44,553 bases of DNA from an uncultured bacterium (GTDB lineage Bacteria; Verrucomicrobiota; Kiritimatiellia; RFP12; UBA1067). Below, piece after piece: positions 4,199 through 13,385 of the stretch (positions are counted from its first letter, which is position 1; every line of letters starts with the position of its first letter). The position numbers were made by a program, and so were the translations under genes. The stretch is taken from positions 1-44,553 of the forward strand of contig CADCBS010000005.1 in NCBI GenBank assembly GCA_902799715.1, read 5' to 3'. The notes beneath the pieces were generated by a model, which had not been told where the DNA came from, ran no database searches, and saw nothing but the letters and a program-made list of their open reading frames with translations.

Positions 4199-5590
4199 CT
4201 ATTTTGCCGGCGCGACGTCCCGGGCGCGGCGCAGCGCCGCCGGGAAAATCTCCGGCGGCGCGATGCCGCGGAGCGTGATGCGGACGCGCGCGTGCCGTCC
4301 GCCCGGCACGCGCGCGAGCCGCCGGTGGCCGACTGTGGTCCCCTCGCAGACCTTGCGCCAGCCGCCGCCGTCGTCCAGTTCTATCGAGAAAGCCTTGATG
4401 CGCTGGCCGCCGGCGATGCGCTCCTTGATGTCGACGAAGTTGAATTCCGCCGGCTCCGGCAAAGCCATCTCCACTACGAGCGTGTCGCCGTCGCGCCGCT
4501 CCGCGACCGTCGCATTCTTGGCGAAGTCCGTCGAATTGAATTCTCGCACCCACGCGCCGAATTCCGCGAGCCGTTTCGCGTCCGCCTCGCAGACCTGTCC
4601 GTCGGCGTCGGGGGCGACGCCGATATTCATCACCGAGCCTCGCCCCACGGATTCGACGTATATCTTCGCGAGGCGGGCGAGCGGCTTGGGGCTTTCGTTC
4701 CGGTGCCAGTACCAGCCGCGGCGCAGGGGGAAATCGGTTTCCGGCGGTAGCCAATGGAGTTTTCCGTCCGCGCCCTTGCGGGGGCACCACCAAGTTTCGG
4801 GGCAGACGCCGCTTTCGTTGCCGCACCACTCCGAAGACCATTCCCCGCCGCCGCCGAATGCGATGGCGCGCGGGTGCTTTTCGTGCATGAGCCGCAGGAG
4901 CGAATCCAGCCTGTAGTAGTCCTTCGGTATCGTGCGCCGCTCGCCCTTGCCGCCGTTGGCGCCGCCGTACCAGCCTGTGCCGCCGTTGGCGCCGTCGATC
5001 CAGATTTCGGCCAGTTCGCCGTAGTTGCCGAGAAGTTCGTTCCACTGCGCGAAGAAGTAGTCGACATACGCGGGCGTGGCGTAGGAGGCCTGCCGCCTGT
5101 CCCAGGGCGAAAGGTACACGCCGAACTTCATGCCCTCGCGCCGGCAGGCGTCAGAAAGCTCGCGCACAAGGTCGCGGCCGGTGTTCGGCGGCGGCACGGC
5201 GGACATCGAATAGTCCCTGTTCAGCGGCGAAGGCCACAGGCAGAACCCGTCGTGGTGCTTGGCCACGAGCACCACGGCCGAAATCTCCGCCGCCTTCATG
5301 GCCTTTGCCCACTGGGCGGGGTCGAGCTTCCGGGCGGAGATTTTCGAAAGAGGCACGTTGCCGAACCCCCATTCCTGGCCGGTGTACGCGTTCAGCCCCC
5401 AGCACACGAGCGCGATTATTTCGCGGTCCTGGTATTCAAGGTGCGCCTGCGACGGCAGGACGGACGCCGTTCCGGCGTCCGGCGCGCCTGTGGTTCCGGC
5501 CTTCGCCGCAGTCTCCGCGCCTGGCGCGGCAGCGACGGCGGAGACCGCAGCGAGAGCGGCGGCGCAAATGTTGGCCCATGGCTTTTTCAT
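4199..5590 (-). CDS. Alpha-L-fucosidase, GH29
   Basis: Exo-acting, retaining alpha-L-fucosidase. Starting at the ATG at 5590 (AAGGA 9 bases upstream) it has a signal peptide MKKPWANICAAALAAVSAVAA and about 463 residues; an ATG at 5608 adds MKKDDD. Typical GH29 segments are present: GLNAYTGQEWGFG, VLVAKHHDGFCLWPS, REGMKFGVYLSPWD, and the motif EIWIDGANG near residue 196 whose Asp is the nucleophile of the family. The GGGGEWSSEWCGNE block and the C-terminal beta-domain (about 340-463) also fit. Composition of the substrate pocket resembles subfamily B (GH29B, alpha-1,3/1,4 linkages) but I cannot assign this firmly. It is the last gene of a run with GH95 upstream (70 bases between them), so both fucosidases are probably co-expressed in the periplasm or outer membrane. 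Confidence 0.88.
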   Translation of the reverse strand: MKKPWANICAAALAAVSAVAAAPGAETAAKAGTTGAPDAGTASVLPSQAHLEYQDREIIALVCWGLNAYTGQEWGFGNVPLSKISARKLDPAQWAKAMKAAEISAVVLVAKHHDGFCLWPSPLNRDYSMSAVPPPNTGRDLVRELSDACRREGMKFGVYLSPWDRRQASYATPAYVDYFFAQWNELLGNYGELAEIWIDGANGGTGWYGGANGGKGERRTIPKDYYRLDSLLRLMHEKHPRAIAFGGGGEWSSEWCGNESGVCPETWWCPRKGADGKLHWLPPETDFPLRRGWYWHRNESPKPLARLAKIYVESVGRGSVMNIGVAPDADGQVCEADAKRLAEFGAWVREFNSTDFAKNATVAERRDGDTLVVEMALPEPAEFNFVDIKERIAGGQRIKAFSIELDDGGGWRKVCEGTTVGHRRLARVPGGRHARVRITLRGIAPPEIFPAALRRARDVAPAK

Positions 5591-5660
5591 GTCGTCGTCC
5601 TTTTTCATGTTGTCGTCAACCTTCCGTATCGTATGGTATCCCGGCGCGCCGCAACGCGCG

Positions 5661-7628
5661 TCACCATGAGAAATCAACGGTCTTGCCGTCGCGCGTGCGC
5701 AAGCCCTTCACGGAGCCGTGTCCCCATGATGCGGGGATTGCGCGTTCCAGCAGGATTTCGCACACGGCGCCGACCATGCCGAGGTTGCCGTCTATCTGGA
5801 AAGGCGGATGCGTGGCGAAAAGATTGTCCAGCGTGTTGTGCCGCAGCAGGCCGTCGAGCATGGCGCCGGCCTTTTCGCCGTCGCCGAGGCGCGCCCACAG
5901 CGCGGCGCGCCAGGGCCAGGTCCAGCTGCGGCGCGAGTCGCCGCCGTTCGCGCGCCCGGCGAGCGCCGTCGCCGCGGCGCGGGCGAGTTCCGGCGTGGAC
6001 CTGCGCGATATGGTGGAGCCGGGGTACACGGCGTACAGGTGGCTGGTGTGGCGGTGCGTGTCGCCTTTCACGTCGCGGTCCGTCTCCCATTCCTGCAGCT
6101 GGCCCCAGCGGCCGATCCTGTCTTTCAGGAGTTTCGGTTCGAGACGCGCGACCTCGCGTGTGAACGCGTCGTCGATTCCGAGCGTCTTCGCCGCGGCGAG
6201 GATCGACCGGAAGAGTTCGCGCACGATCTGCTGGTCGTGGGCTACGCCGTCCTCGCGCGGGCCGTGCTCGGGGCTCCAGCCGTTCTTCACCACGACCGTG
6301 CCGTCCGGACGCTCCTTCAGCTGGGTGGAGATCATGAACTCCGCCGCGCCCTTCATCAGCGGCCAGCAGATTTCGCGCAGATACGCGCCGTCTCTTGTGA
6401 AGAGCCAGTGGTCGTAGCACTGCGCGGCCATCCACGGCGCGCCGGCGAAGTTCCAGCGCCAGCCCCCTCCCCCGACGGCGTTGGCGCTCGTCCGGTAGGC
6501 GAATCCCATAGATCCGGGGAACGCCGCGCGCGTGCCTTTTTCCGCTACAGGCATGGTCGAAAGCATCCAGTCGCAAAAGGGCGTGAAGCACTCGGAAAGG
6601 TTTGCGGAATCGGCGCCCCAGTAGTTCATCTGGATGTTTATGTTGGTGTGGTAGTCGCAGTGCCACGGCGGGTGCAGCGAATTGTTCCATATTCCCTGAA
6701 GGTTGGCGGGAAGGGAGCCCGGGCGCGAGCATGAAATCAGCAGGTACCTGCCGAAATTGAACTGCAGCGCGACAAGCCCGGGATCCTTCGCGCCCTTGCG
6801 GAAGTCCGCGAGGCGCGCGCGGGTCGGGACGTCCGCGCGGCTTGCGCCGCCGATGTCGAGCGTCATGCGGCCGTACAGGCGCGAGTAGTCGGCCGTGTGG
6901 CGGGCCAGCAGCTTTTCCACGCCCATGTCGCATGCCATGCAATGCATGAGCGCGTCGTCCCTGGCGCGTGCGCCGGTGGCGGCGCAGAGGGCCATCTCCA
7001 CCTTGCCGCCGGCGGAGCGCATGCGGACGGCGGCCGCGTATTCGAGGCCGTTGCCCAGCCTGCCGGAGAAAGTGTGTGCGCCGTCAGCGGGCGCGCCGCC
7101 GGCGCGGCGGGCGTCGACGAGGCGGATGCGCGGCATGGCCGGCGGCGTTCCTCCTGCTATTTCGACCACGATGGCGTTGTCCGGGGCGCTTGCGAATATC
7201 CTCCGCGAAAACTCCCTGCCGCCGACGGAGAAGCGGTCGGAGTACACGGCCTTCGAAAGGTCGAGTTCGCGCCTGTAGCCCGTCACGCGGCCTGGCGGGA
7301 GCAGCGGGCGCATGTCGATTTCAAGCTCTCCGAAATTCTGGTATTCGCCCATCGTGGCGTAGTTTGCGTCGGCCGATGCGTCGCCGGCGGCCGCGGATAT
7401 GTTCTCGCCGCCGGTCCACAGCGAGTCGAGGTTGAACTGGACGCGGAGCTTTTCCGCGCCGCCGTCTACCATGCAGCCGAGGCGTCCGTTGCCGAGTGGG
7501 TACCAGGAACTTTCCCAGGCGGCGCCCGGGCGGTCGTCCCATATCCTGTCTTCGAGTCCGTGGGCCGCGAAAGCGGCTATGGCGGCGGCGATGGCCGCGC
7601 AGGCGCGGCAGGCGGATTTTGCGTTCAT
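5661..7628 (-). CDS. Alpha-L-fucosidase (inverting), GH95, compact C-terminus
   Basis: Inverting alpha-1,2-L-fucosidase family. The ATG at 7628 follows AAAGAAAGGGA and opens a signal peptide (MNAKSACRACAAIAAAIAAF). N-terminal beta-domain: GAAWESSWYPLGNGRLGCMV and QFNLDSLWTGGEN. The (alpha/alpha)6 catalytic barrel carries the family's functional residues: Asn pair in NINIQMNYW (about residue 329), acid Glu in WSPEHGP (about 452) and base-assisting Asp in PPFQIDGNLG (about 611). At 655 residues it is roughly 100 shorter than usual; the segment normally reading QSHxGEIxLLPALPxxW is missing between EILLERAIP and GSVKGLRTRDG, and the protein stops right after TVDFSW, so the C-terminal beta-domain is largely gone. 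Lies 42 bases after clpC on the same strand. Catalysis looks possible; the trimming is unusual. Confidence 0.88.
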   Translation of the reverse strand: MNAKSACRACAAIAAAIAAFAAHGLEDRIWDDRPGAAWESSWYPLGNGRLGCMVDGGAEKLRVQFNLDSLWTGGENISAAAGDASADANYATMGEYQNFGELEIDMRPLLPPGRVTGYRRELDLSKAVYSDRFSVGGREFSRRIFASAPDNAIVVEIAGGTPPAMPRIRLVDARRAGGAPADGAHTFSGRLGNGLEYAAAVRMRSAGGKVEMALCAATGARARDDALMHCMACDMGVEKLLARHTADYSRLYGRMTLDIGGASRADVPTRARLADFRKGAKDPGLVALQFNFGRYLLISCSRPGSLPANLQGIWNNSLHPPWHCDYHTNINIQMNYWGADSANLSECFTPFCDWMLSTMPVAEKGTRAAFPGSMGFAYRTSANAVGGGGWRWNFAGAPWMAAQCYDHWLFTRDGAYLREICWPLMKGAAEFMISTQLKERPDGTVVVKNGWSPEHGPREDGVAHDQQIVRELFRSILAAAKTLGIDDAFTREVARLEPKLLKDRIGRWGQLQEWETDRDVKGDTHRHTSHLYAVYPGSTISRRSTPELARAAATALAGRANGGDSRRSWTWPWRAALWARLGDGEKAGAMLDGLLRHNTLDNLFATHPPFQIDGNLGMVGAVCEILLERAIPASWGHGSVKGLRTRDGKTVDFSW

Positions 7629-7670: not shown

Positions 7671-10259
7671 TCAGCCGGCGGGATTCTTCTGTGCGAACGA
7701 AAGCGTGCCGTCGTCCGCGGCGTCGGCGGTCACGCGGCCCGGCGCGAGTTCGCCGCGGAGGATTTTCTCGGCCAAGGGGTCTTCGACGTAGCGGCGGACC
7801 GCGCGCCGCAGCGGGCGCGCGCCCATTGCCTCGTCGCAGCCCTTGGAGGCCAGGAAGTCGGCGGCGGCCGGCGAAAGCTCGAGCGTCATGTCCTTCGCGC
7901 TCAGGCGGCGGCGTATCTTGGAAAGCTCGAGTTCGAGGATCTTCGACACGTCCTCGCGGGAAAGCCGCTTGAAGACTATGGTTTCGTCGAACCGGTTGAG
8001 AAGTTCCGGTCGGAAGGCGCGTTTGGCCTCCTCCAAGAGCTTCGCCTCCATGCGGGAGAAGTCGCTTTCCGGCGTTTTCGGCGCGAAGCCCAGGCCCTTG
8101 CCGCTTTTGGCGAAGTCGAACCCGAGGTTGGCCGTGCAGATGACGATAGTGTTGCGGAAGTCTATGACGCGGCCCTGCCCGTCGGTCAGGCGGCCTTCGT
8201 CGAGAATCTGGAGGAGCATGTTCATCACGTCGCCGTCGGCCTTCTCGAATTCGTCGAACAGGACGACGGAGTACGGCCTGCGGCGGACGCGCTCGGTGAG
8301 CTGGCCGCCCTCGCTGTAGCCCACGTATCCGGGCGGCGCGCCGAGGAGGCGGGACGCGGTGTATTTTTCCGTGTATTCGCTCATGTCCAAGGAGATGAGG
8401 GCTTTCGGATCGCCGTACACCTGCACGGCGAGGTTCCGCGCGAGGAGAGTCTTGCCCACGCCGGTGGGGCCGAGGAACAGGAAGGAGCCGATGGGCCGGT
8501 CGGGGTCCTGGAGCTGGGCGCGGCTGCGGCGCAGGGCGCGCGCGACGGCGCCGACGGCGCGCTCCTGGCCGATCACGGTGGCGTTCAAGTCGCGTTCGAT
8601 CGACAGCAGGCGGCCGGCGGTGCTTTCGGTTATGCGCTGGACGGGGACGCCGCTTATCGAGGCCACGGTCTCGGCGATGTCGTCGCCGGAAATCTCCACG
8701 ACGTTCTCCGCCTGCCTGCCGCGCCATTCCTCCAGGGCGACGTCGAGTTCGCGGCGCGCCTCGAGTTCGCCGTCGCGGCAGACGGCGGCGTTTTCGAAAT
8801 CCTGTTTTTCGATGGCGGCGTTCTTGCGTCTGTGGAAATCGTCCACCTTGGCCTGGAGCTCGCGGATCGAGTCCGGGCGGGTGGCGGCCTTCATGCGGGC
8901 GCGGGCGCCGGTTTCGTCTATGGCGTCGATGGCCTTGTCGGGAAGCAGGCGGCCGGGCAGGTAGCGTGCGGTAAGTTCCACGGCGGCGCGGAGCGCGTCG
9001 GGGGCGTACTTCACGTTGTGGTGCTCTTCGTAGCGCGAGGCGATCCCCTTGAGTATCTCCAGAGCCTCCTCCTGGTCCGGCTCGTTCACCATGATGCTCT
9101 GGAAGCGGCGTTCGAGCGCGGCGTCTTTTTCCACGGACTGCCTGTACTCCTTCAGCGTGGTGGCTCCGACGCACTGGAGCTCGCCGCGCGCGAGCGCGGG
9201 CTTCAGGATGTTGGCGGCGTCCATGGCGCCTTCGGCGCCGCCGGCGCCCACGAGCGTGTGGATTTCGTCGAGGAACAGCACGACGTTCCCGGCGCGGCGG
9301 GTTTCCTCCACCACGGATTTGAGGCGCTCCTCGAACTGGCCGCGGTACTGGGTGCCGGCCACGAGGCGGGCCATGTCGAGCGACACCACGCGCTTTCCGG
9401 CCATGCGCTCGGGGACGTCGCCGGAAGCGATCGCCTGCGCGAGGCCCTCCACGACGGCGGTCTTGCCCACGCCGGCCTCGCCGATCAGGACGGCGTTGTT
9501 CTTCGTCCTGCGGCAAAGCACCTGTATCACGCGCACGAGTTCGTTGCGGCGGCCGATCACGGGGTCGAGTTTGCCCTGCCGGGCCATGGCCGTGAGGTCG
9601 CGGCCGAAGGCGTTCAGCGCGGGAGTCTTCTTCTGGGCGGAGTCCTTCGCGCGTCCGCCGCCCTGGCGTCCGTCCGGGTCCGTCTGGTCCTCCCCTCCCC
9701 CGTCTCCGTCGCCGTCGCCTTCGTCTTCGCCGTCTCCGTCGCCGGAGTCCCGGCCGGCGTCGTTCCCGTCCGCGTCGTCTTCCTGCCCGTCCGCGTCCCG
9801 GTCTCCGTCGCCGTCCGCGCCGTCGTCTGCGTTTTCGCCTGCGGCGGCGAAGCCCGACAGCGTGATTTCGCGGTTGAAGAGAATCTGCGCGGCGGCGGAT
9901 TCGCCTTCGGAAAGGATGGCTTCGACTATGTGCGAGGTCCCTGCCACCGTCTCTCCGGCCTCCGCCGCCATCGCGAGGGCCATGTCGACGATTTTCTTCG
10001 TGCGTGCGGTGACGGGCGGCACGCCGCGCTGGCGCACTGGCTCGCCGCGGCCGACTATCGACGCCTCGGCGGCCACGCGCAGTTCGTCGGGGTCGGCGCC
10101 CATGGCGGAGAACCGCCGGCACGCGCCGCATTTCCTGTCGCGCAGTATCGCGAGCAGGATATGCTCCGTTCCTATGTACGGGTGGTTCATTTCCTGGGCT
10201 ATGGAAGCGGCCTTGTCGAGCGCGGCTCGCGCTCCGGCGGAAAATTCGGCTGATGGCAT
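7671..10259 (-). CDS. clpC: ClpC-type AAA+ unfoldase with an Asp/Gly-rich linker
   Basis: Hsp100 unfoldase that feeds substrates to ClpP. ATG at 10259 with AGGA 10 bases upstream. Order of parts: Clp N-domain with two repeats (residues 1-140, [14 protein letters not shown] and [13 protein letters not shown]), a 60-residue linker made almost only of Asp, Gly, Glu and Ala (141-200, encoded by 9660-9839), AAA1 with GEAGVGKT near 260, a middle region containing an UVR-like segment ([20 protein letters not shown]), AAA2 with GPTGVGKT and the D2-small domain. The UVR-containing middle region and the neighbouring mcsA/mcsB identify ClpC rather than ClpB. The usual ClpC linker before AAA1 is short; here it is extended by low-complexity, hexanucleotide-like DNA. 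Third gene of the mcsA-mcsB-clpC operon, 55 bases after mcsB. Confidence 0.92.
9660..9839 (-). repeat. Low-complexity GAC/GGC-rich tract coding the acidic ClpC linker
   Basis: On the plus strand this reads as repeated GTCTCC/GTCGCC/GTCGTC hexamers. It encodes residues 141-200 of ClpC, about two thirds Asp plus Gly, with no aromatic residue. Such tracts can expand or shrink by replication slippage. Confidence 0.7.
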
Positions 10260-10314: not shown

Positions 10315-11409
10315 CTACTGCAGCGAGCGCCTGCCGCGGACGTTCGGCGCCAGGCGCATCGCGAGCGGACGGAGTTCCGTGGCGCGCGCCGCGTCGGCGG
10401 CGTCGCACTCGTCCGGCGTCATTCCCGCCGCTTCGCCGGAATCCGGCGAGATGCCGAGCATGGCGCGGTCAAGCTCCTCGAGGCTCGCGCCGGACACGAA
10501 GCCCATCGACGCGGCCATGCGCACGGGCGACAAGACGTCGAGCGCCTCGGTGGTGCTGATCATCCTGCAGTTCTGCATGATTGCGATGGCGCGGCGCACG
10601 GTGTCGGACAGCACTATGTTCAACTCGCCGGCGAGGCGCATGCGCGCGTTTATCTCCTGTTCGGCGAGGGCGTCGGTGGCGGCCTGGAAGCCGGCCAGGA
10701 GTTCGCTTTCCGAAAGCCCAAGGGTGCGTCCGTTCGAAAGCATGAATATGTGGCCGGCGCCGTTGAAGCCGTCCAGCTCCACGCTGCGGACCTTGATGCG
10801 CATCGCGGCGAGGCCGTGGAGCGACGCCTCGAGCTCGCCGATCTCGTGCAGGCCCTCGAGATGCATCATGCGGAACGCCTTGAACCCCGTCCCGACGCTG
10901 TCCGGGCTCGACGTCAGGAAGCCGAGCGAAGAGTCCCATGCGAAGTTCAGCCGCCGCGAAAGCGTCTCTTCGAGCACGGCGACGCGCATCGCGGGGCCTT
11001 CGACGTCCGTACCCGGCGCGATGCGCGCGATCGCGAGATGGTCGGAGTGGCACGAGAAGATGAATTCGAACGGCGTGGCCGACGAGACGAACGGGTTCAT
11101 CGCCAGCTCGTCGCATGCGTCGGCGGCGTTCAGGTGCATGAGGCGGGCGAAGTAGCCCACGAGCCCGTGCGGGTGCGGCGGCTGGACGCGCGTGAAGCGC
11201 GTGCCGTCGGGGAACGGCTCGCCCGCCGCCTTGCAGATTTCGCCGTCGGCGCGCTGGAACTCCTTTTCCTTGTCCGGATCGTGGTATTTGGTCGGGAACG
11301 GCCTTCCGGCGAGATTGCGCAGCAGGCACGCGCCCGACATGAAACACACGTCCGACACGTCGAGCGCGGGATACGGGTGCGGCGGCCGCTTCGGGGCGTG
11401 GAGCTTCAT
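10315..11409 (-). CDS. mcsB: McsB-like protein, phosphagen-kinase fold with degenerate active site
   Basis: Homologue of the protein-arginine kinase McsB (ATP:guanido phosphotransferase family), 364 residues, ATG overlapping the mcsA stop (ATGA). The fold is clear: [43 protein letters not shown] and [16 protein letters not shown] align with the B. subtilis protein without large gaps. The residues needed for catalysis are not kept: the ATP-binding SSRIR is MSGAC, the catalytic NEEDHxR is CHSDHLA, the family Cys in SCPTN is Ser, the Arg in GTGLRAS is Lys, and RGIYGEG is RSVELDG. The C-terminal phospho-arginine site ERDxRRA is ECDAADA. I infer a pseudokinase that may act as a scaffold or adaptor between McsA and ClpC; arginine phosphorylation is unlikely. 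The gene is intact, in frame and in its conserved position, so it is not simply decaying. Confidence 0.85.
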
Positions 11410-11996
11410 TCGCCCTCCTTGACGCCGTCGCCGCCGTCAAGTCCCGAAAGCTGGTCGCGCAGGCGGCGCGCCTCTTCGAAATCCTGTGCGGCCACGGCTT
11501 CGGCCATGCGCTTTTCGATGCTCTTGCGCACGGCCTCGCCGCTGCGGTGCAGAGGGACCTTCCCTCCGCAGGAGGTCGCCACATGGACCTTGCGCAGCCT
11601 GTCCTCGAGCTTTTCGCGGAATGCGTGGTAGCAGGCGGGGCATCCCAGAAGGCCGGATTCGGAGTAGTCCTCCCACGTGTGCCCGCAGACCTTGCATTTG
11701 ATGTCTTCCTTGCGCGCGGCGGCGTCCGCCCTGCCTGCGAGGCTTCCCATCAGGTCGGCGGTGGCGCTCATCAGCGCGTCGAGGACCGGCGGCGGCACCA
11801 TGTTTTCCGGCAGCGCGTTGATGGTCAGGGACAGCCCCGCCCGGGGCTTGCCGCGTCCTTTGCGGGCTGCGGCCTTCCGGCGCCGTTCGCTTTCGGCGGC
11901 GCAGGCCTTGCAGACGTAGTATTCGCGGTCGCGGCCGTTCTCGTTGGCGTGGATTACTGTTTCGGCTTCCGCCTTGTGGCATTTTTCGCATTTCAT
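11406..11996 (-). CDS. mcsA: McsA-like zinc-finger/UVR protein
   Basis: Partner and activator of McsB/ClpC. The start at 11996 gives [12 protein letters not shown]; 196 residues. Four CxxC pairs (MKCEKC, YVCKACA, IKCKVCG, LGCPACY) form two zinc-binding units, and the C-terminus holds an UVR helical hairpin ([22 protein letters not shown]) of the type that contacts the ClpC middle region. The middle Pro/Leu-rich part ([19 protein letters not shown]) resembles other McsA proteins. No ctsR is found upstream; instead the gene starts the operon, with a TTTGG-TATACT promoter whose predicted start of transcription (12000) is only four bases before the ATG. No Shine-Dalgarno fits in so short a leader. 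Stop overlaps the mcsB start. Confidence 0.88.
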
Positions 11997-12006
11997 TTCG
12001 CGCGCA

Positions 12007-12018
12007 AGTATACCAAAT
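12007..12018 (-). promoter_or_regulatory. Extended -10 promoter of mcsA operon, near-leaderless
   Basis: Minus strand reads CATTTGG-TATACT (hexamer at 12012-12007). Transcription is expected near 12000 while mcsA starts at 11996, leaving a leader of about four bases. Confidence 0.55.
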
Positions 12019-12125
12019 GCTCCGGCCTCCATACAGAAAAAACGCGCGAATCCTGATTGCCACGGAGCGCGGATTATGGCACAATATCAACCCTACGCGG
12101 CAAATGCCGCAAAACGGGGCATGTC

Positions 12126-13385
12126 ATGGAACTGTTGCAAAAAAGCATTATGATATTCCGCAAGAGCCTTCTGGCGAGGGTCGCCGCAGCCATCCTGATA
12201 GGTTGCGGCGCCGGGTCGTGCTTCGGCCTGGCGGACGGCGCCGCGGCCGTGCCGATAGATGCCGCGCGGGCGTTCGCCACGTTCAGCGCGCTGTTTTCGT
12301 CGTTCCTCGCGTTCATGATCCCGCTGATAATAGCAGGGCTTGTGACGGCGTCCATCGCCGAGATCGAGCAAGGCGCCGGGAAGATGCTTTTCGCGACTGT
12401 CGCGATAGCCTACGCCGACACGGTGTTCTGCGGTTTCATTTCATACGGCGTGGGCGCCACCGTGTTCCCGCATTTCACGGACGCGGCGGCGCAGGCGGGC
12501 GCGGCCCCGTTCGCGTCGCCGGCGCCGTACTTCACGGTGAAGATACCGCCGGTGATAGACGTGATGTCGGCGCTGATGCTGGCGTTCGTGGCCGGCATGG
12601 GCATTTCCGGGCTGGGTTGCGAGACTCTGCGCAAGGCGGTCCGGGAGTTCGGCGCCATCGTGTCGGCCACGATCGAGAAGGCCATAGTGCCGCTCCTCCC
12701 CCCGTACATATTCTGCATATTCCTCGACATGGCGTGGACCGGGCAGGCGGTGGCCGTGGCGTCGTCGTTCGCCATGGTGGTGGCGGTGATATTCGCGATG
12801 CACATCCTCATTATCCTGATCCAGTACTGCCTGGCCGGGGCGTACTGCCGGCGCAACCCGTTCAAGGCCATCGCCTGCATGATGCCGGCGTACTTCACGG
12901 CGCTGGGCACGTCATCGTCGGCGGCGGCGATCCCCGTTTCGCACGAGTGCGCCCTGCGCTACGGCATTTCGCGCGAGACCGCCGGCCTGGTCATACCGCT
13001 CACAGCCACGATACACATGTCCGGCAGCGCGATGAAGATAACGGCGTGCGCGGTGGCGCTGTCGCTGATGCGCGGCTACGGGCTCGCGTTCGCGGATTTC
13101 GCCGGGTTCGTGATGATGCTGGGCGTGATCGCGGTCGCCTCGCCGGGCGTCCCCGGCGGCGCGATAATGGCGTCTCTCGGGATATTGGGGTCGATACTGG
13201 GCTTCAACGCGGCCGACCTCGCGCTCATGATCGCCCTCTACCTTGCCATGGACAGCTTCGGCACCGCCTGCAACGTCATAGGCGACGGCGCTATAGCGAT
13301 GGTCGTGGACAGGATGGCGGCGAAACGCTCCGCCTGGCGGAAACCTTCCGCCGGGGGCGCGGGGAGCGGGGAGCGCGCGACGTGA
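12126..13385 (+). CDS. Dicarboxylate/amino-acid:cation symporter (DAACS/SDF family, SstT-like)
   Basis: Inner-membrane Na+ or H+-coupled transporter of the glutamate/serine symporter family, 419 residues with 8 predicted hydrophobic segments plus two re-entrant hairpins. The serine-rich hairpin ALGTSSSAAAIPVS (about 260), the TIHMSGSAM motif in place of the classical NMDGT, and MDSFGTACNVIGDGAIA at the C-terminal end mark the family; the NMDGT variant recalls serine/threonine (SstT) or tryptophan-type members rather than glutamate carriers. Start chosen at 12126 (ACGGGG upstream); 12150 is a weaker alternative. It is divergent from mcsA and its GTGA stop overlap links it to the glutathione peroxidase. 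Substrate not determinable from sequence. Confidence 0.85.
   Translation: MELLQKSIMIFRKSLLARVAAAILIGCGAGSCFGLADGAAAVPIDAARAFATFSALFSSFLAFMIPLIIAGLVTASIAEIEQGAGKMLFATVAIAYADTVFCGFISYGVGATVFPHFTDAAAQAGAAPFASPAPYFTVKIPPVIDVMSALMLAFVAGMGISGLGCETLRKAVREFGAIVSATIEKAIVPLLPPYIFCIFLDMAWTGQAVAVASSFAMVVAVIFAMHILIILIQYCLAGAYCRRNPFKAIACMMPAYFTALGTSSSAAAIPVSHECALRYGISRETAGLVIPLTATIHMSGSAMKITACAVALSLMRGYGLAFADFAGFVMMLGVIAVASPGVPGGAIMASLGILGSILGFNAADLALMIALYLAMDSFGTACNVIGDGAIAMVVDRMAAKRSAWRKPSAGGAGSGERAT

Follow-up and report, generated by a model that had tools for sequence, protein, structure and literature searches.

A degenerate McsB homologue in a mcsA-mcsB-clpC locus: a putative, recurrently evolved pseudokinase

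In a 44,553 bp stretch of DNA from an uncultured bacterium (contig CADCBS010000005.1, positions 1 to 44,553, referred to as the window) we found a McsB homologue with a largely substituted active site. McsB normally marks damaged proteins for degradation by phosphorylation of arginine. Alignment and profile comparison showed the loss of the catalytic Cys and Glu and of most phosphate-binding arginines, with the fold, the dimerization domain and the loop contacted by McsA still in place. Comparison with related genomes showed that canonical McsB had changed to this degenerate state on several occasions and that the state was kept under purifying selection. We propose that the protein is a recurrently evolved McsB pseudokinase, probably acting as a kinase-independent, McsA-bound adaptor or regulator of ClpC, and would give this reading a probability of about two in three.

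The original prediction had described a conserved pseudokinase used as a ClpC adaptor. Its first half is well supported: the gene is intact and present in a single copy, the loss is lineage-wide, the gene is under purifying selection, the partners were kept and the eraser phosphatase was lost as well. Judged by its sequence, this is a conserved and selected gene of a kinase family whose catalytic residues were lost, i.e. a putative pseudokinase. A use as adaptor of ClpC would explain the data best and is derived from the gene context, the retained residues and the published adaptor activity of the kinase-dead C167S mutant of B. subtilis McsB (PMC7235348).

The following features were assigned, all of them on the reverse strand:

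11406 to 12032, (-): mcsA, gene of the activator and partner; both zinc-finger CxxC pairs and the UVR motif intact
10315 to 11409, (-): McsB homologue of 364 aa, degenerate and putatively a pseudo protein-arginine kinase; open reading frame, PF00217 (E 1.9e-23), 6FH1 (E 5.7e-32), substituted catalytic residues
11029 to 11049, (-): HSDHLAI, residues 121-127, replacing EEDHIRI of G. stearothermophilus McsB (alignment)
10918 to 10938, (-): retained loop W158-F164 (WDSSLGF), counterpart of the loop with which McsB meets the zinc finger of McsA (conservation; Y147-Y153 in S. aureus)
10900 to 10908, (-): S-P-D motif, residues 168-170; Ser168 stands where B. subtilis McsB has its catalytic Cys167 (alignment)
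10420 to 10674, (-): retained dimerization domain (residues 246-330 approximately), in which E252, R256 (B. subtilis R255), R273 (B. subtilis R272) and E288 are kept (alignment)
7671 to 10259, (-): clpC, AAA+ unfoldase; N-terminal repeats GTEH (Glu32 kept) and GTSH (Glu106 replaced by Ser)

The mcsB frame starts with ATG and contains no internal stop. It overlaps mcsA by 4 bp (11406-11409) and is located 55 bp upstream of clpC, which starts at 10259. The predicted intactness of the gene, its overlap with mcsA and its position ahead of clpC were hereby confirmed. With clpC and a mcsA with two zinc fingers both being adjacent, the locus has the composition of a mcsA-mcsB-clpC operon. Two clpP genes were present in the genome. 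The gene in the window is the only one matching PF00217 in the assembly (89.6% complete), and no second active McsB was found. Directly downstream of clpC two overlapping fucosidase-type genes were found (4199-5677 and 5661-7628, both on the reverse strand), one an alpha-L-fucosidase by Pfam (PF01120), the other a member of glycoside hydrolase family 95. A sodium:dicarboxylate symporter gene (12057-13385, forward strand) is divergently orientated with its start adjoining the mcsA start. It is followed by what reads as a glutathione-peroxidase-like frame.

According to the Pfam, NCBIfam and PDB comparisons the window protein belongs to the McsB/ATP:guanido phosphotransferase family. It scored 83 bits against PF00217 (cut-off 22). 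The score against the NCBIfam protein arginine kinase (152 bits) was below the curated equivalog cut-off of 385, and that of a second NCBIfam equivalog (124 bits) did not reach the cut-off of 500. The closest solved structure was G. stearothermophilus McsB (6FH1), aligned with residues 19-348, and homology to 6FH1 and PF00217 covered the phosphotransferase as well as the dimerization domain. AlphaFold2 on the window protein and a homologue of the same genus gave no usable model (pLDDT 41.6), so that the retention of the fold rests on sequence profiles.

The active-site residues were mapped with G. stearothermophilus McsB (6FH1) and a 54-sequence alignment and are given in B. subtilis McsB numbering. 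C167 is replaced by Ser168, E121 by Ser122, R125 by Ala126 and R176 by Lys177, R29 by Gly26 and R31 by Cys28, while the exchange of E212 to Asp213 is conservative. His124, R34 (Arg31 of the window protein) and R207 (Arg208) were retained. Within the catalytic set of E121, R125, C167, R176, R207 and E212 together with the N-lobe R29, only R207 was left, the others being S, A, S, K, D and G, respectively. At the pArg receptor site near the C-terminus, D338 was retained and R337 lost; R341 was ambiguous, with Asp in one alignment and Arg in another.

The motif exchanges quoted previously (SSRIR to MSGAC, NEEDHxR to CHSDHLA, SCPTN to SSPDS, LRAS to FKAF, RGIYGEG to RSVELDG and ERDIRRA to ECDAADA) all matched the explicit alignment, and mapping of each catalytic residue gave substitutions at C167, R125, E121, R176, R29 and R31. 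The accompanying claim that the whole active site is lost and all key positions differ holds for most of the catalytic residues but was too broad, as R34, R207 and D338 were kept and E212 is represented by Asp. Each of the exchanges C167S, R125K and R176K abolishes the kinase activity of B. subtilis McsB, and the window protein carries the same changes C167S and R176K (PMC7235348). The retained R34 and R207 and the Asp for E212 may be compatible with a residual or altered activity.

A profile built from 16 relatives was used to search 162 genomes of the order. The McsB homologue was present in 148 of them, mostly with open frames. The NEEDHxR motif, screened as a DNA pattern (0 matches in the reversed-pattern control), was retained in 21 genomes, and all 21 matches were located inside the McsB coordinates. 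Outside the order but in the same class, the motif was present in 69 of the 72 genomes with a homologue (counted by hand). The loss was thus widespread in the order, with 21 NEEDHxR-bearing genomes among the 148. Additionally, 20 canonical and 33 degenerate McsB sequences of the order were read directly. All 20 canonical sequences contained C167, R125, E212 and R29; these were present in 0, 5, 5 and 4 of the 33 degenerate sequences, respectively. The motif state was uniform inside each genus of the order. Since the same class of loss was seen in 33 separately read loci, it is not due to chance. A pseudogene, contamination or misassembly was ruled out by the intact, single-copy gene and the recurrence in many separate genomes. 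The sampled genomes are incomplete MAGs. The one named relative, the uncultured genome RUG11875 of the same genus, was the only record found in a collection scan with a narrow alignment; two broader alignments were too poorly conserved throughout for such a scan.

A tree of RpoB from 51 genomes, built by a quick method from this single gene with homology-chosen reading frames, required 5 changes between the canonical and the degenerate state, at least 4 of which are forced by strongly supported branches. With regain excluded, the tree reads as six losses: one in f4, one in g24 of f6, one each in g9, g18 and g19 of f1, and one in a large clade that holds f3 together with the genus of the window. 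The degenerate g18 was placed as sister of the canonical g17. The dN/dS was 0.12-0.41 in 11 degenerate pairs compared to 0.07-0.25 in 4 canonical pairs, these figures being rough with the most divergent pairs close to synonymous saturation. The intact genes together with the dN/dS of 0.12-0.41 argue against pseudogenes.

Among the canonical-invariant columns the full-length degenerate proteins retained on average 0.33 for the active loop and 0.20 for the lid, compared to 0.71 for the segment surrounding the McsA-contact loop and 0.67 for the dimerization domain. In S. aureus the contact loop (Y147-Y153) is bound by the zinc finger of McsA (PMC12467219). In B. subtilis McsB the exchanges R255K and R272K lose the stimulation by McsA only (PMC7235348). 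R255 was found in 32 and R272 in 31 of the 33 degenerate proteins, and E251 and R34 were invariant (33/33). The zinc fingers of McsA were intact in nearly all degenerate genomes. In almost all loci mcsA adjoins mcsB; clpC was adjacent in 21 of 34 degenerate loci, and ClpC was present in 17 out of 17 further genomes searched. Several lineages (g2, g6, g13, g14) carried a protein without most of the N-lobe that retained the dimerization domain. McsA and McsB were also found fused in one open frame with a canonical active site (L031 of G017). The fusion in genus g6 (L034, L036, L043) was without the second McsA zinc finger and much of the N-lobe.

Low-molecular-weight phosphatases were present in 39 of 48 genomes. 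Three types of P-loops were found: the YwlE-like C[TS]GN[TIV]CRSPMAEAL, a tyrosine-phosphatase-like CHGNICRSPMAEF-type and the ArsC-like CTGNSCRSQMAEGW. The YwlE-like phosphatase occurred in 13 of 19 canonical and in 0 of 29 degenerate genomes, with the subfamily assigned by P-loop motif only and the MAGs being incomplete. In the genome of the window (89.6% complete) a YwlE-type phosphatase (P-loop C-T-G-N-T-C-R-S or close) was not found; its single low-molecular-weight phosphatase carries the P-loop CHGNICRS. Thr or Ile at position 5 of the P-loop sets the preference for pArg or pTyr, respectively (PMC8001253). Some canonical genomes had Ile or Val at this position of the YwlE-like phosphatase, therefore not all YwlE-like proteins need be arginine phosphatases.

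Glu32 and Glu106 are key determinants of the pArg sites of ClpC (PMC12583610). Glu32 was kept in all 52 genomes; Glu106 was present in 19/19 canonical and 17/33 degenerate genomes. ClpC of the window retained Glu32 and lost Glu106 to Ser. The exchange E106A leads to a partial activation of S. aureus ClpC without adaptor (PMC12583610). As Glu32 is kept everywhere, some reading of pArg might persist. The order offered only 3-4 pairs that are phylogenetically independent, all tied or in the expected direction, and with so few pairs the associations with YwlE and Glu106 were not significant after phylogenetic correction.

In the mechanism we favor, the McsB homologue would no longer write phosphoarginine. 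Bound to McsA, the pseudo-McsB would regulate ClpC-ClpP allosterically or serve it as a stoichiometric adaptor, and could present clients or control the assembly of ClpC through the N-terminal domain without a pArg tag. The adaptor function is suggested by the kinase-dead C167S variant of B. subtilis McsB, which according to its authors keeps a kinase-independent adaptor function in vivo in the turnover of MgsR (PMC7235348). Within this phylum, the chances seem evenly balanced that the phosphoarginine tag was abandoned several times, with the writer inactive, the YwlE-type eraser gone, one reader pocket of ClpC decayed and a tag-free McsA-pseudoMcsB adaptor of ClpC left.

It seems very improbable that the degenerate McsB has kept its arginine kinase activity through a rearranged active site, in which R34, R207, Asp213 and new residues provide weak or McsA-dependent catalysis. 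The R34 found in 33/33 degenerate proteins would fit here, as would R207, E212D and R176K of the window protein. However, C167S, R125K and R176K each kill the activity of B. subtilis McsB (PMC7235348), the catalytic positions differ between the degenerate clades, leaving no shared replacement active site, and the YwlE-type phosphatase was absent from all 29 degenerate genomes examined. We regard it as just as improbable that the old nucleotide/guanidino site was recruited for a new activity, enzymatic or ligand-binding, that has nothing to do with protein arginine phosphorylation. Even though the altered loop is conserved within some clades, e.g. as WCE[LV]M[SG]ANHxTFS in genus g21, no common new motif was seen across clades. 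Furthermore, a new catalytic pocket is hard to reconcile with g2, g6, g13 and g14, where most of the N-lobe is missing and the dimerization domain is kept.

A mcsB decaying toward loss, and kept only by the operon structure or by slow drift, is also quite unlikely. The gene was found in 148 of 162 genomes with mostly open frames, dN/dS stayed far below 1 in each of the 11 pairs, and E251 and R34 were invariant (33/33) with R255 and R272 nearly so; the progressive shortening and McsA fusion in some genera (L025, L034, L036, L043) and a dN/dS somewhat above the canonical pairs would speak for such a decay. Finally, the protein could be mainly a regulator or structural partner of McsA and not of ClpC, e.g. 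by sequestering McsA or as a McsA-dependent redox or heat sensor. This is unlikely in our opinion: although the zinc fingers of McsA were kept and mcsA is adjacent in almost all loci with clpC in only 21 of 34 degenerate ones, ClpC was present in all 17 further genomes searched, and the McsA/McsB complex has been described as binding the N-terminal domain of ClpC (PMC12583610).

The preferred reading as a pseudokinase acting on ClpC can be compared with known systems. With the McsB protein-arginine kinases of B. subtilis, G. stearothermophilus (6FH1) and S. aureus (8GQD) the window protein shares the homology over residues 19-348, the order mcsA-mcsB-clpC, the McsA-contact loop and the dimerization domain. 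It differs by the replaced catalytic Cys, Glu and most active-site arginines, by scores below the NCBIfam equivalog cut-offs and by a genome in which a YwlE-type phosphatase was not found. The B. subtilis C167S mutant, reported to keep its adaptor function in MgsR turnover (PMC7235348), has the same Cys to Ser exchange. However, this is one engineered change in a canonical enzyme, whereas the window protein shows many natural changes with an altered pathway around it. Bacterial Ser/Thr pseudokinases (PMC12599244) likewise keep a kinase fold with a predicted loss of catalysis and a presumed scaffold or allosteric role, but theirs is the Hanks fold and not the phosphagen-kinase (ATP:guanido) fold. 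The likeness to MecA-type adaptors, whose activation of ClpC has been described (PMC12583610), lies in the proposed mechanism only and is not sequence-based: a tag-independent adaptor or activator of ClpC would act via its N-terminal domain. Pseudokinases and the McsB family are already known. A report on McsB pseudokinases or on a naturally recurrent pseudokinase with phosphagen-kinase fold was not found in our non-exhaustive literature search.

Whether McsB is to ClpC chiefly an arginine kinase or also a kinase-independent adaptor has so far been argued from laboratory mutants. Here, a natural and repeatedly evolved McsB apparently without catalysis has kept its partners, and sister genera still carry the active enzyme. 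Such degenerate and canonical sister genera are ready pairs for sorting out the tag-dependent functions of McsB. If our reading is true, the adaptor role would be separable from the kinase role in nature and able to outlive it. The annotation as protein arginine kinase and the phosphoarginine signalling inferred from it are probably wrong for most genomes of the order, which seems to consist largely of uncultured bacteria.

Beyond the order, degenerate sets were found in the families f15 (g47), f28, f46, f52, f53, f54 and f64, and in f42 some members of genus g83 were degenerate as well. In family f40 (genera g81 and g89; L222, L223, L225) McsB carries NEEDQ in place of NEEDH with the other active-site residues intact. 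Phylum-wide pattern counts were not used as loss counts, since the NEEDHxR pattern under-counts canonical McsB in f40. In genus g83 canonical (L221, L224) and degenerate McsB (L232, L240, L247-L250) were both present; the loss may be recent here and good for dating.
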